Shown one piece after another: positions 51,931 through 57,557 of a DNA stretch of 64,000 nucleotides (position 1 is its first letter; each line of letters begins with the position of its first letter). The position numbers were made by a program, and so were the translations under genes. Source of the stretch: Gimesia algae (GTDB taxonomy: Bacteria > Planctomycetota > Planctomycetia > Planctomycetales > Planctomycetaceae); NCBI RefSeq assembly GCF_007746795.1, contig NZ_CP036343.1, positions 4,687,357-4,751,356 of the forward strand, read 5' to 3'. The notes beneath the pieces are model-generated. The model had not been told where the DNA came from and did not search any database. It was given only the letters and a program-made list of their open reading frames with translations.

Positions 51931-53256
51931 TTATCGCTTTACTTTACATCCGGGAACGGCAGCTTCGAATTGTGTGACTCCGTCATCGGTCACCTGAGAA
52001 AAACTTAACTGGAGTTCTTTCAGATTCTTTAAGGCAGCCAGTTTCTGTAAACCTTCATCTGTAATATCCGTTTTACTCAAATTCAGATATTCCAGTTTCT
52101 TCAGGGGCAATAACTGCTCCAGTCCTTCATCAGTAATCGGAGTCCCTTCCAGATTCAGGCGATTCAATTCGGTGAAACCGGAAATGACCTTCAAGCCTTC
52201 ATCCGTGGTTTCTGTCCCCCATAAGCCAAGCCGGGTCAGTTTCTTCAAGTCCTTTATTTGTTCCAGCCCTTGATCGCCAATCATTGATTCATCCAGATCC
52301 AGGTAAGTCAGATCGGTCAATCCGGACAGATACTTCATGCCTTCATCAGTCACCACGGTATCCCGCAGATGAAGTGTCTGGAGTTTTTTCATGTTCTGGA
52401 TATTTTCAACGCCGGGATTGCCGACAAAATCCCGCCGCAGATGCAGGGCTTCCATGTTTGTCATATCTTTCAGATACTTCATCCCTTCATCTGTTATTTC
52501 CGTATCATCCAGTTCCAGTGAAACCAGATTTTTATCTTTCAGTAATTCCAGAGTCTTATCGGAAATATTTCTGCCCCAGGTATTCAAACGCTGTAGATTT
52601 GGAAGTGCAGCGATGTCCTTCATTCCCTCATCCGTCACCTGAGTCGCCTGAACCTTGAGCACTTTCAGGTTCTTCATTCCCTTGATATGAGGCATCCCCT
52701 CATCATTGATCTCTTTATTAAAACGCAGATCCAGATCTTTGAGCTCCGGGAATTCTGCGACCACTTTCAAAGCGTCATTAGTAATGTTGGTGGCACGGAG
52801 TGAGAGCACCTGAAGATCTTTCAAGTTCGACAGATTCTTGACCCCCTCATCCCCCACCGCAGTACTTTCCAGACTCAGAAACCACAGTTTATTTTTTTTG
52901 CCAATCTCCTCTGTGGCAACGTCTGTGAATTGAGGCCCCCAGAGAATCAACCGTTCCAGTGAAGGCAGACCTGACAGATGCCTGAGATCCTCATCCTTCG
53001 CATTGGTACCCTTCAAGTCCAGAATTAAAACACGACCATCCTTGGACATGCCCAGTTTGGCATCCAGGTCCTTGAATACCTTCACTGCTTCTGGTGAGTC
53101 TGGCTCGGCTGCAGCCCGTTGTTTGTCAGTCGCAGGAGACTGCTCAGTTTTCGCTGAAGTAGCGGCTTTCTCAGGGTCAGCAGGAGGAGTACTTGTACTG
53201 GGACATCCTGTTAAAAGAGATAATGCTGCCAGTGAAAGAAATACTCTTGTCTTCAT
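51931..53256 (-). CDS. Leucine-rich-repeat lipoprotein
   Basis: 441 residues. Lipobox LTGC (Cys18) followed by a disordered Pro/Thr/Ala linker to about 60. About 14 LRR units of 23-25 residues fill the rest, of the type ITDEGMKYLKDMTNMEALHL and LTDLTYLDLDESMIGDQGLE. Predicted horseshoe anchored to the membrane, a binding module. AAGGA upstream of ATG 53256. The gene precedes the UDG gene by 16 bases. Confidence 0.9.
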   Translation of the reverse strand: MKTRVFLSLAALSLLTGCPSTSTPPADPEKAATSAKTEQSPATDKQRAAAEPDSPEAVKVFKDLDAKLGMSKDGRVLILDLKGTNAKDEDLRHLSGLPSLERLILWGPQFTDVATEEIGKKNKLWFLSLESTAVGDEGVKNLSNLKDLQVLSLRATNITNDALKVVAEFPELKDLDLRFNKEINDEGMPHIKGMKNLKVLKVQATQVTDEGMKDIAALPNLQRLNTWGRNISDKTLELLKDKNLVSLELDDTEITDEGMKYLKDMTNMEALHLRRDFVGNPGVENIQNMKKLQTLHLRDTVVTDEGMKYLSGLTDLTYLDLDESMIGDQGLEQIKDLKKLTRLGLWGTETTDEGLKVISGFTELNRLNLEGTPITDEGLEQLLPLKKLEYLNLSKTDITDEGLQKLAALKNLKELQLSFSQVTDDGVTQFEAAVPGCKVKR

Positions 53257-53597: not shown

Positions 53598-56500
53598 GTG
53601 AAACATCGCCTCGCCTCACCTGCCCTTCTGTTTTTCTGTCTCACCATTATCAGTACACTGTTCTCCCAGCAGATCAATGCGAAAGACTGGAACACGTATC
53701 TCGCAGACCGCGAACGAGCGGGAGCCACAACAGACTCGATTTCCCTTCCACTGGCTCCGGCCTGGAAGTATGTCGCTCCCAGCCCGCCGAAGACAGGTCA
53801 GACCGATCCGGGCGAGCGTGTCATGGAAGGAAAGGATCTGGAAGCACGCGTCGATTTTGACGATGCGCTCCATGTCGCGATTGCCGACGGGCGTGCTTAT
53901 TTCGGGTCTTCCGTTGACCACCTGATGCGTTGTGTCGATTTGAAATCGGGTAAATTACTCTGGTCCTATTTCACTGGTGGGCCGATTCGGCTCTCGCCCA
54001 CGATCAATCAATCCCACGTCTATTTCGGTTCCGACGATGGATTCGTTTACTGTCTGGACGCAAAAACGGGAAAAGAAGTCTGGAAGCTTCGAGCCGGGCT
54101 GAACGAAGAAATGATTATTGCCCGCGGGGAAATGGTCTCGCGCTGGCCTGTCAGAACGAATGTTCTGATCGATGACGGGATCGCCTACTTTGGTGCAGGC
54201 ATCTTTCCACACGAAAATATCTACCTGTACGCCGTCGATGCGAAAACCGGAAAAGTGATCTGGAAAATTGATAACCTCAGCCAGACCTCAGCTGGCCGCA
54301 ATGAGCTCTCTCCCCAGGGATACATTCTGGCCAATGACGAGTTTCTGTTTTTCCCTTCAGGGCGTTCATTGCCAGCTGCTTTCAACAAGAAAACCGGCGA
54401 AGAAGAACACAAACGCTCTTACAGCTGGAGAAGCACTGCCGGCGGAGTCGTGGGGGGAACCCAGGCCCTGCTCGCGGATGGACAGATCTATTCTATGGGA
54501 GCACACCATATTCTGGCGTTAACACAATCTAAAGGTGACGTCGGTTTTGCCTGGATCACCGGTCAGCAAATGGCCGTCCAGGGAGAGTCCGCTTACCTGG
54601 CCACGGGATCTTCCATCCGGAAAGTCAACCGTGGTGAGCATGCTGTGGGATCGCAGAAGGCTCACAAAAATGACATGACCATTAACGGGCTGCTTAGAAA
54701 ACTCCGCAGTCTGAAAGGGAAAAAAGCAGAAGAGGCACGGGCTGAAATCAAAGCTCTGCAGGAAGAAAATAAAACGTTCGTTAAAGCGGGAGTCCTCTGG
54801 GAAATTGCTGCCCCCGCCCGTGATTCTCTGATTGTTGCTGGCGATAAAGTCATTGTGGGTGGTGAAGATCAGGTATTGATACTTGATGAAGCCACGGGAA
54901 AGCTTCTGGAAACATTAAAAGTCAAAGGACATGCACGCGGGCTGGCGGTTTCCGATGGTCAACTGGTCGTCAGCACCTCGGCTGGTGAAATCATCGGTTA
55001 CGGAAGTTCAAAATCTGATCAACCTGCAACTCAGATCAATCCCCTGACAGCGGCTTCACCCTACCCCGCAGATGAAATGACTCCCGTGTATCAGCAGGCA
55101 GCCAAAGATATTTTAGCACACACCAATATTAAAGATGGATTCTGTCTGGTTCTGGGGAGCGAAGAAGGCCGACTCGCCTATGAACTGGCTCGTAACAGTA
55201 ATCTGAAAATCTATTGCATTGAACCAGATCCAGCAAAAGTGGAGCAGGCTCGGCAGAAACTCGCTCAGGCCGGTTATTATGGTCATCGCGTGGCCGTACA
55301 CCAGACCGAACTCTCTCCTCTCCCCTATTCACGCTACTTTGCAAACCTGATCGTCTCAGATACACTACTCAAAACAGGTCAGATCCCGGGGATCCCCAAA
55401 GATATCGCCACACATGTCAAACCGCTGGGGGGAACCATCTGCCTGGGCATTCCTGCAAATTCACAGGCAGAAAAGACCAGTAACACTCAACTGATAGACT
55501 GGTTGAAACAAACTGGACTCTCCGAAACTTCAAAAATCAACGATTTACAAGGTTACGCCACACTGGTTCGGGGTGCCTTACCCGGGGCAGGCAGCTGGTC
55601 GCATCAGTATGGTGACCCGGGAAATACCGCCAGCAGTAAAGATCAACTGGTTCGCGGAGGACTGGGTGTCCTCTGGTTTGGCGATCCGGGTGAAAAAAAG
55701 ATGGTCAACCGCCATGAAGGTGCAGTCGGTCCACTTGCGATCAACGGCCGTCTGTTCATACAGGGTGAAAGCACCATTATGGCATTTGACGCCTATAATG
55801 GTCTGTTTCTCTGGGAACGGGAAAATCCGCAGGCAATTCGTACCGGCGTATTTCAGAACCAGAATCCGGGTAACCTGGTCGCCAGCGATGACAGTCTGTT
55901 CTTTATGATGAAAGAAAGCTGCTATCAACTGGACGCGGCTACCGGAAAAACAGTCGCCAAAATCCCTCTGCCTGAAAAACTCAATGACGGCAAACACGAA
56001 TGGGGTTATCTCGCGTATCAGAATGGAATGATTTTCGGAACCGCCACCACACGCAAAGAACTCGAAGCCCGACAGGTTCGTCGAGGTCGGAGAACGGAAG
56101 ATTCCACCGATGCGCTGTTTGCCATCGATGTCAAAACCGGAAAACCAGCCTGGAGCTATCAGGGTAAAAACATCGCCCATCACACGATTGCCATCGGCCC
56201 GGAAGCGGCTTACTTCATCGACAGTTCCATCACCAGTGAGCAACGCGCCGAGATTTTACGTCAGGACAAATCACATCTGGAAAAATTGACCGGAAAAGAA
56301 CGTGAAATCGCTGAGGATCGGCTCAAAATTCAGGACCTGCGGCTGGCTGTCGCACTCGATATCAAAACCGGCAAGAAACTCTGGTCGAAACCTGTCGATG
56401 TTACGGACTGCAGTGAGATTGGCATCGGCGGTGGAAAACTGACACTGTTGTACCAGAACAATGTCCTGCTACTCTGTGGAGCCAACGCGAACGGTCATTA

Positions 56501-57557
56501 CTGGAAACAGTTTATTGCCGGTGACTTTTCCCGTCGGCGACTGGTGGCTCTTAATGCCGGTGATGGCGCCCTGCTCTGGAAAAAAGATGCCAACTATCGT
56601 CACCGCCCCATCGTCGTGGGAGATAAAATCATTGCTGAGCCCTGGTCATACGATCTTTATACCGGCGTTCAACACACGCGAAAGCATCCTTTGACCGGAC
56701 AGGAAGTCCCCTGGAGCATCATGCGGGAAGGACATCATTGCGGCATGCTTTCCGCATCGGAAAACCTGTTGATGTTCCGTTCCGGCTACACAGGCTTCTA
56801 CGACCTGGAAAAAGACGCTGGTACCCGACATTTCGCCGGCCATCGTACCGGCTGCTGGATCAATGCCATTCCTGCGAATGGTCTGGTGATGATTCCTGAA
56901 TCCTCTGCAGGCTGCGTCTGCCTGTTTTCGATCTCTTCTACAATTGTGCTTGAGCCACGTGAAGAACGGACCCATTGGACCATCTTCAGTTCTGTCGGCC
57001 CCAAAACTCCCGTCCAGCATATGGCGTTAAACATGGGAGCCCCCGGTGATCGCCGCGATGCGCATGGTACGGTCTGGATGGCTTATCCCCGACCAAAACC
57101 AAGTCGGGAAACCGGACTCGACTTCAAATTTGATATTCAACCCAAATTCAGCGAAGGGGGAGGCTACGACAGCCTGAATGAAATCACTCATCCTGTCAAA
57201 AATGCCGAGCCGGGCTGGGTCTATACTTCCTGGGCCAAAGGGCTGAAGGAATGCACCATCCCTCTGCTGGGGAAAAGCGATGCACCAGCCAACTACACTG
57301 TGGAACTCTCTTTCTCCGGACTGGAACCGGTCTCTTTAACCAACCAGCAGGAACCACCGCTGTATGAGATCAAACTGCAGGGGCAGGTGGTTCAGAAAGA
57401 TTTTAACCCGCAAACAGCAAAGTCCACCCAGACACTCAAATTCAAAGGGGTCCCCGTTAAAGAAAATTTACAGCTCGAGCTGGTCCCGCAAAATGATTCA
57501 GCTCGCCAGACACCTGCAGCTTTAAGTGGAATTGAAATTATTCGCTCAGATTCATAG
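53598..57557 (+). CDS. Giant PQQ-like beta-propeller protein with inserted methyltransferase-like domain
   Basis: 1319 residues, exported (leader with LLFFCLTIISTLFSQQINA). GTG start 53598 has AAGGA seven bases upstream. PQQ/BamB-type blades fill residues 85-470 (YFGSDDGFVYCLDAKTGKEVW, YLYAVDAKTGKVIW) and 690-1160. Between them, about 495-640, lies a class I SAM-methyltransferase-like unit: CLVLGSEEGRLAYELARNSN, then IYCIEPDPAKVEQARQKL and YFANLIVSDTLLKTG. The C-terminus is a beta-rich domain. A SAM enzyme outside the cytoplasm would be odd, so this unit may be structural. Its stop precedes repeat R1 copy C by seven bases. Confidence 0.85.
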   Translation: MKHRLASPALLFFCLTIISTLFSQQINAKDWNTYLADRERAGATTDSISLPLAPAWKYVAPSPPKTGQTDPGERVMEGKDLEARVDFDDALHVAIADGRAYFGSSVDHLMRCVDLKSGKLLWSYFTGGPIRLSPTINQSHVYFGSDDGFVYCLDAKTGKEVWKLRAGLNEEMIIARGEMVSRWPVRTNVLIDDGIAYFGAGIFPHENIYLYAVDAKTGKVIWKIDNLSQTSAGRNELSPQGYILANDEFLFFPSGRSLPAAFNKKTGEEEHKRSYSWRSTAGGVVGGTQALLADGQIYSMGAHHILALTQSKGDVGFAWITGQQMAVQGESAYLATGSSIRKVNRGEHAVGSQKAHKNDMTINGLLRKLRSLKGKKAEEARAEIKALQEENKTFVKAGVLWEIAAPARDSLIVAGDKVIVGGEDQVLILDEATGKLLETLKVKGHARGLAVSDGQLVVSTSAGEIIGYGSSKSDQPATQINPLTAASPYPADEMTPVYQQAAKDILAHTNIKDGFCLVLGSEEGRLAYELARNSNLKIYCIEPDPAKVEQARQKLAQAGYYGHRVAVHQTELSPLPYSRYFANLIVSDTLLKTGQIPGIPKDIATHVKPLGGTICLGIPANSQAEKTSNTQLIDWLKQTGLSETSKINDLQGYATLVRGALPGAGSWSHQYGDPGNTASSKDQLVRGGLGVLWFGDPGEKKMVNRHEGAVGPLAINGRLFIQGESTIMAFDAYNGLFLWERENPQAIRTGVFQNQNPGNLVASDDSLFFMMKESCYQLDAATGKTVAKIPLPEKLNDGKHEWGYLAYQNGMIFGTATTRKELEARQVRRGRRTEDSTDALFAIDVKTGKPAWSYQGKNIAHHTIAIGPEAAYFIDSSITSEQRAEILRQDKSHLEKLTGKEREIAEDRLKIQDLRLAVALDIKTGKKLWSKPVDVTDCSEIGIGGGKLTLLYQNNVLLLCGANANGHYWKQFIAGDFSRRRLVALNAGDGALLWKKDANYRHRPIVVGDKIIAEPWSYDLYTGVQHTRKHPLTGQEVPWSIMREGHHCGMLSASENLLMFRSGYTGFYDLEKDAGTRHFAGHRTGCWINAIPANGLVMIPESSAGCVCLFSISSTIVLEPREERTHWTIFSSVGPKTPVQHMALNMGAPGDRRDAHGTVWMAYPRPKPSRETGLDFKFDIQPKFSEGGGYDSLNEITHPVKNAEPGWVYTSWAKGLKECTIPLLGKSDAPANYTVELSFSGLEPVSLTNQQEPPLYEIKLQGQVVQKDFNPQTAKSTQTLKFKGVPVKENLQLELVPQNDSARQTPAALSGIEIIRSDS

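Follow-up and report, generated by a model that had tools for sequence, protein, structure and literature searches.

The window, a stretch of 64,000 nucleotides from the single-contig genome (7.93 Mb) of Gimesia algae, encodes a protein with an export signal in which two PQQ-like β-propellers are joined by a domain with the fold of class I methyltransferases. Throughout the clade of the window protein this domain has lost motif I, the signature of S-adenosylmethionine (SAM) binding, and among 294 genomes of the phylum a second protein with an export signal, here called CL1, is found only in genomes that also carry the domain and is once fused to it. We consider it rather probable that the protein is an exported double propeller joined by a SAM-independent pseudo-methyltransferase, serving as a scaffold or as a module that binds a ligand or partner, and that it probably works with CL1. 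The parts of the gene are as follows.

53598..57557, + strand: gene of the double-propeller protein with the methyltransferase-like domain, 1,319 amino acids, GTG start (open reading frame list and translation)
53598..53681, + strand: signal peptide, residues 1 to 28 (KHRLASPALLFFCLTIISTLFSQQINA), likely cut after ...QQINA, as predicted from the sequence
53682..55013, + strand: N-terminal PQQ-like β-propeller, residues 29 to 472 (Pfam PQQ_2/PQQ and model matches)
55077..55571, + strand: class I methyltransferase-fold domain, residues 494 to 658 (profile, Pfam, models, and structure comparison)
55560..57092, + strand: C-terminal PQQ-like β-propeller, residues about 655 to 1165 (best Pfam PQQ_2 stretch 724 to 1020; strands in the model)
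56739..56921, + strand: four invariant cysteines, C1048, C1086, C1106, and C1108, in the last blades of the second propeller

The PQQ_2 repeats of the protein pass the curated cutoff with 110.4 bits against 27.6. Residues 29 to 472 form a closed propeller by themselves, as the fold search shows with matches spanning model residues 1 to 443, and the model of this propeller resembles Rv3035, YxaL, tetrathionate hydrolase, and BamB with Z scores of 29 to 35. AlphaFold models residues 29 to 1195 with a pLDDT of 85.7 and a pTM of 0.87; the C-terminal end is poorly modeled, with a pLDDT below 50 from about residue 1127 to the end of the model at 1195. The initial annotation had described a methyltransferase-like domain splitting two sets of propeller blades. 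The domain does lie between the two propeller halves, but no single propeller is interrupted by it.

The sequence shows signs of export. The initial annotation's signal peptide is borne out by the family: in a set of 105 rows, which includes copies of the window gene, a simple hydropathy measure places a hydrophobic 12-mer with a mean hydropathy above 1.8 at the expected N-terminal site in 94, ahead of a conserved DW motif that opens the mature protein; in 4 of the 11 rows lacking it, the anchor lies away from the N terminus. The four cysteines are invariant in the ungapped rows of the 121-row family (115/115, 113/113, 111/111, and 111/111 for C1048, C1086, C1106, and C1108), which suits an extracytoplasmic protein in which they might form disulfides or a metal site. 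Signal peptide and cysteines together point to Sec-type export. Directly upstream of the propeller gene and divergent from it lies the gene of a leucine-rich-repeat protein with a lipoprotein-like N terminus (51931-53256, − strand); four further loci, two of them close kin, have a relative of this protein in the neighborhood of the orthologue.

The methyltransferase fold of the middle domain is supported by profile and structure comparisons alike. The whole protein matches Methyltransf_25 at residues 519 to 611 with an E value of 4.1e-5 and 24.6 bits, below the cutoff of 27; the 176-residue domain stretch scanned alone reaches 28.7 bits, above it, and 55 of 61 family members match at an E value of 1e-3 or better. 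A profile of the 61 members searched against solved structures picks up a putative SAM-dependent methyltransferase, PDB 3dlc, with an E value of 5.4e-14. Folded alone, the domain is modeled with a pLDDT of 94.6 and a pTM of 0.91 and superposes on 3dlc (VIA) over 162 of 176 residues with a Z score of 16.9 and an rmsd of 2.8. Among the 50 matches listed in each structure comparison, nearly all are named methyltransferases; the few with other names, the SpnF cyclase, spermidine synthase, and the RdmB hydroxylase, we take to share the class I methyltransferase fold. Searches with the whole model returned propellers only, mainly over model residues 1 to 444, and it is the domain-only model that reveals the methyltransferase-like part. 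The modeled elements follow the order helix-β1-helix-β2-helix-β3-β4-helix-β5-helix-β6-β7, which is that of class I methyltransferases, and build the seven-stranded Rossmann-like fold with the β6/β7 hairpin that marks this superfamily. The SAM fold first proposed for 55083-55520 (residues 496 to 641) is thus a class I methyltransferase fold by profile match and by model, and not an unrelated one. An Erm-like match to NCBIfam (E value of 0.058) was set aside as noise.

The state of the SAM site is described by three features.

55149..55169, + strand: degenerate motif I, VLGSEEG, residues 518 to 524, with Glu522 in place of the middle glycine (orthologue alignment)
55221..55223, + strand: Glu542 at the end of β2, Asp or Glu in 87/88 orthologues and 115/121 family rows
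55359..55361, + strand: Asp588 at the end of β4, Asp or Glu in 88/88 orthologues and 105/121 family rows

The canonical form of motif I, (D/E)xGxGxG, is absent from the window protein, while the acid at the end of β2, which in active methyltransferases serves ribose binding, is present as Glu542. The abnormal motif I noted from the single sequence proves to be a property of the clade. Among 88 orthologue rows (89 orthologue-like rows, from which L001 and L011, copies of the window gene, were removed and to which the window was added), some of them identical or nearly so (e.g., L012/L042, L018/L068, and L024/L128), the leading acid at position 518 is found in none, Gly520 in 76, and Gly524 in all; position 522 is Gly in 8 and Glu in 73. 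The equivalent positions of other methyltransferases from the same genome are normal, with the acid in 26/29 and the three glycines in 24/29, 29/29, and 28/29, although the choice of best-scoring sequences favors intact motifs. An acid at position 571, the equivalent of the adenine-binding acid, occurs in 47/88 orthologues against 21/29 controls, and the position is among the freer ones of the domain, at the 70th percentile of entropy. The domain as a whole varies more than the rest of the protein, with a mean entropy of 1.87 against 1.41 bits.

Other positions of the pocket are kept. Positions 588 and 524 are invariant in the 88 rows when Asp and Glu are pooled, an acid stands at 520 or 522 in 80/88, and the acids at β1, 542, and 588 are all present in 79/88. 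No control methyltransferase (0/29) has the acid at 588, an alignment that may be one column off in a few rows. The conservation of the acids at 542 and 588 and of Gly524 indicates that the pocket has been changed and is not simply decaying. The acid at 588 also occurs in 22 of the 30 family rows with the middle glycine, so that the loss of Gly522 and the acid at 588 are not coupled. The control consists of 29 open reading frames from 30 fetched loci (L170 yielded no usable one), the best-scoring 30 of 61 Methyltransf_25 matches, aligned with a profile seeded with 17 control methyltransferases chosen by a motif pattern; the 29 include L172, which is exported by sequence as well. An earlier alignment of 26 loci with the control profile gave the middle glycine in 26 and the leading acid in 23. 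Two cruder controls, a regular-expression motif search (17/29) and the family profile (8 loci, some mismatched), were replaced by the control-built profile.

Relatives of the window protein are found in 80 loci of the genome-contig scan (the best 80 of 83 stretches), comprising 66 from Planctomycetota, 12 from Verrucomicrobiota, and 2 without a phylum, and the domain occurs at an E value of 1e-3 or better in 56 of 294 genomes drawn from the phylum. In the contig scan, from which the closest records to the window may be missing, the nearest relative comes from a Gimesia metagenome genome and shares 92% identity (L041). The 132 matching open reading frames gave 89 orthologue-like rows and 33 paralogue rows, the latter picked by hand for spread. 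The window genome holds seven family members including the window gene, six found at an E value of 0.1 or better (plus two weak matches in short open reading frames) and the seventh, L126, through a local profile search. Motif I of its paralogues reads VLGTGSG in L121, the canonical DVGCGDG in L122, CHGTENA in L123, DLGAENA in L125, and LAGIPDA in L126. L124 begins with the methyltransferase-like domain and has its propellers in swapped order; among other members, the domain also stands at the N terminus in second propeller open reading frames of L046, L074, and L119. L127 and its kin L023, L025, and L026 lack the first propeller and carry other sequence in its place, LamG-like and Fn3-like in L127 as read by eye, with the signal peptide retained. 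In L130 and L134 the first propeller is preserved and preceded by an additional N-terminal part. Neither the absence of the first propeller (L127 and kin) nor a permuted order (L124) separates the methyltransferase-like domain from the C-terminal propeller, and these two therefore form the constant unit of the family.

The loss of motif I is graded across the family. The middle glycine is kept in 30/121 rows, the whole GxGxG in 23, and the full D-x-G-x-G-x-G in 2. The motif is entirely gone from one paralogue clade (WFGPCEA, WFGDCSQ, and CHGTENA), which keeps the fold residues R552, P609, G611, and G612. On a quick tree of the 121 rows the middle glycine shows about 10 state changes, and none of 500 shuffles gave so few, a sign of strong clustering; the tree has several long branches and does not settle the order of motif loss. 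GxGxG persists in some paralogues, which indicates a SAM-type fold as the origin of the domain. A single capture of such a fold followed by repeated loss of motif I is the likely history suggested by these alignments.

Two further kinds of methyltransferase-like proteins with export signals are found in the window genome. The paralogue L122 (C1:62500-67000) is exported by sequence and, with its intact motif I, scores 43.1 bits for Methyltransf_25. L172/L192 (C1:3240228-3241025, − strand) is a small separate methyltransferase-like protein with a signal peptide and a DIGAGSG motif; a hydrophobic N-terminal stretch is present in 14 of 18 rows of its family, L172 included, and relatives occur in 17 of 99 phylum genomes, its own among them, at an E value of 1e-25 or better, several within longer open reading frames. 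The expectation voiced in the initial annotation, that SAM is absent from the periplasm, needs a caveat here: an exported L122 with a perfect motif I and an exported L172 make this premise insecure in this genome, where the window protein would not be alone in having a methyltransferase-like fold outside the cytoplasm.

CL1 shows 330 to 450 residues and the sequence signs of an exported protein. It is encoded in 24 of the 80 propeller-protein loci and, by clustering, in 23 of 62 stretches longer than 9 kb, the window's included. In its N terminus an Ala-Cys pair ends the hydrophobic stretch, followed by x-x-P-V-F-R-Y-A-L-E; the mature protein may start at the cysteine at the end of the signal, or CL1 may be a lipoprotein. 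A second motif, C-x-C-x-V-K-x-x-N-P-G, is invariant. An alignment of CL1 searched against solved structures gave no match at an E value of 1 or better, the CL1 of the window genome belongs to no Pfam or NCBIfam family at 0.001 or better, and two other CL1 proteins gave sub-threshold family matches only. Among 294 phylum genomes CL1 occurs in 43, that is, in 43 of the 56 with the methyltransferase-like domain and in none of the 238 without it (Fisher p of 2e-40, kinship ignored), a count free of locus-picking bias. In the family to which the window belongs, CL1 and the domain occur together in 12 genomes and are both missing from 5. A natural fusion joins the propeller/methyltransferase-like protein and CL1 in one open reading frame of 1,587 residues (L181:808-5568, + strand), followed by matches to ModA, ModB, ModC, and ThiS.

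The CL1 gene of the window genome (C1:1207641-1208588) lies far from the propeller gene, in the following run.

L180:2797-10613, − strand, within C1:1198000-1217000: CL1, FtsX permease, LolD-like ATPase, tandem ModA, ModB-like permease, ModC/WtpC-like ATPase, ThiS (GG end), and ThiF/MoeB-like protein

In other planctomycete families, pieces of this run are again found next to the propeller protein. The neighbor scan covered 92 loci, 80 from the contig scan, chosen for the propeller protein (24 with CL1), and 12 picked for CL1. Its 36 CL1-bearing loci contain the propeller protein in 34, FtsX in 16, LolD in 14, ModA in 13, ModB in 9, ModC in 7, ThiF in 5, and ThiS in 3; these counts lean to linkage, ten of the eleven picked CL1 loci outside the window genome having a family hit on the same contig, and absences carry little weight, many scanned loci being short. 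The ThiS of the run is one of four in the window genome and not its sole sulfur carrier, and molybdopterin oxidoreductases give two matches in this genome. Tandem or divergent pairs of orthologue and paralogue occur in L091, L092, L097, L062, L086, and L112, with CL1 between or beside them and a wholly degenerate motif I in the paralogue in all except L062. Such pairs may perhaps form a heteromeric complex with CL1.

From these observations a course of events can be proposed. The protein would be made with its signal peptide, exported through Sec, and folded as two propellers bridged by the methyltransferase-fold domain. The fold would have been captured from a SAM enzyme and SAM binding given up in the clade of the window protein, leaving a domain that likely serves the C-terminal propeller as a rigid module for docking or for a ligand. 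The partner in a putative complex is probably CL1, and in many planctomycetes the system may also include the FtsX/LolD-type transporter, the molybdate/tungstate-type ABC importer, and the ThiS/ThiF pair. From these gene neighbors we would guess at a role in the handling of a metal oxyanion or sulfur. A wider proposal, and a rather unlikely one, is an undescribed envelope system of Planctomycetota and Verrucomicrobiota in which the double propeller, CL1, FtsX/LolD, the molybdate/tungstate ABC importer, and ThiS/ThiF build or load an extracytoplasmic metal or sulfur center, with the former SAM pocket as the binding site.

That the methyltransferase similarity reflects chance or a generic Rossmann resemblance has hardly any probability; the single-sequence Pfam score below its cutoff would fit it, against the profile match to 3dlc, the agreement of 55 of 61 members, and structure matches nearly all named methyltransferases. 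A cytoplasmic protein, whose N-terminal hydrophobic stretch would not be a signal peptide, is likewise very improbable. The GTG start codon could be cited for it, against which stand the hydrophobic stretch kept ahead of the DW motif in most of the family, the four invariant cysteines, and the match of the N-terminal propeller to BamB and tetrathionate hydrolase, PQQ-like propellers of known, extracytoplasmic location.

The remaining readings concern what the pocket does. Loss of motif I in the clade with intact motifs in other methyltransferases of the genome favors the SAM-independent reading, and absence of SAM binding and catalysis from the window clade is what the alignments suggest. An active periplasmic methyltransferase with an unusual motif I, supplied by exported SAM, is clearly unlikely: it gains from the canonical L122 in the same genome, from the small DIGAGSG proteins with export signals, and from the acid retained at 542, but the middle glycine is lost in 80/88 clade rows and kept in all 29 controls, the adenine-site position is variable, and no SAM export is known. 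A possible but doubtful alternative is a functional domain with a repurposed pocket, in which Glu522, Glu542, and Asp588 would bind another periplasmic ligand such as a metal ion, an oxyanion-metal complex, or a cationic molecule. The three conserved acids, the two positions without variation, the lack of the acid at 588 in the other methyltransferases of the genome, and the molybdate-type importer among the gene neighbors are consistent with it; the acids may instead serve the interface between domain and propeller, and the acid at 588 was not gained along with the loss of SAM binding, given its presence in most rows with Gly522. The preferred reading, a SAM-independent pseudo-methyltransferase between two propellers, meets counterevidence of its own, since the conserved acids and Gly524 speak against plain decay and the family rows that keep the middle glycine, GxGxG, or the full motif include members that may still bind SAM.

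A fold that serves a cofactor in the cytoplasm would here have been moved into a compartment presumed to lack that cofactor. A single genome has motif I in its canonical form, half lost, and lost altogether, and so offers a direct test between extracytoplasmic SAM and an emptied, reused fold; among its proteins L122 is the one on which the presence of SAM beyond the cytoplasm can be tested. The co-occurrence with CL1 and the metal- and sulfur-carrier neighbors point to a function in the envelope of Planctomycetota and Verrucomicrobiota that has yet to be studied.

The domain shares the full fold, the strand order, and the β5 "LKPxGG" element with class I SAM-dependent methyltransferases (Methyltransf_25/11; PDB 3dlc, MMP1179). 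In contrast to these, the window clade lacks the acid and the middle glycine of motif I and has the acid at 588 at β4 instead, and the domain carries export signals and is built into a propeller protein. The N-terminal propeller is like the PQQ-like β-propellers without PQQ (BamB, YxaL, Rv3035, and tetrathionate hydrolase; Z scores of 29 to 35); the window protein differs from them by its two propellers, the methyltransferase-fold domain between these, and the four invariant cysteines. Similarity to PQQ-dependent dehydrogenases (TIGR03075 and kin) is a weak one of blades, and PQQ as a cofactor is unlikely, with 60 bits for TIGR03075, far below the cutoff of 480, and no PqqE above the cutoff in the genome (best 62.1 against 381 bits). 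Animal fatty acid synthase is a cytosolic enzyme whose partner domains are unrelated to those of the window protein. Its pseudo-methyltransferase (PsiME) domain, so named in PMC10258763, is likewise a remnant of the methyltransferase fold kept in a large multidomain protein, an analogue in spirit. A search of the open-licence literature, which cannot establish absence in print, found no paper on this architecture or on the tie to CL1. Each half of the protein is of a known kind; what is apparently undescribed is their combination in a conserved family with export signals, in which the SAM motif is lost by degrees, and its tie to CL1.
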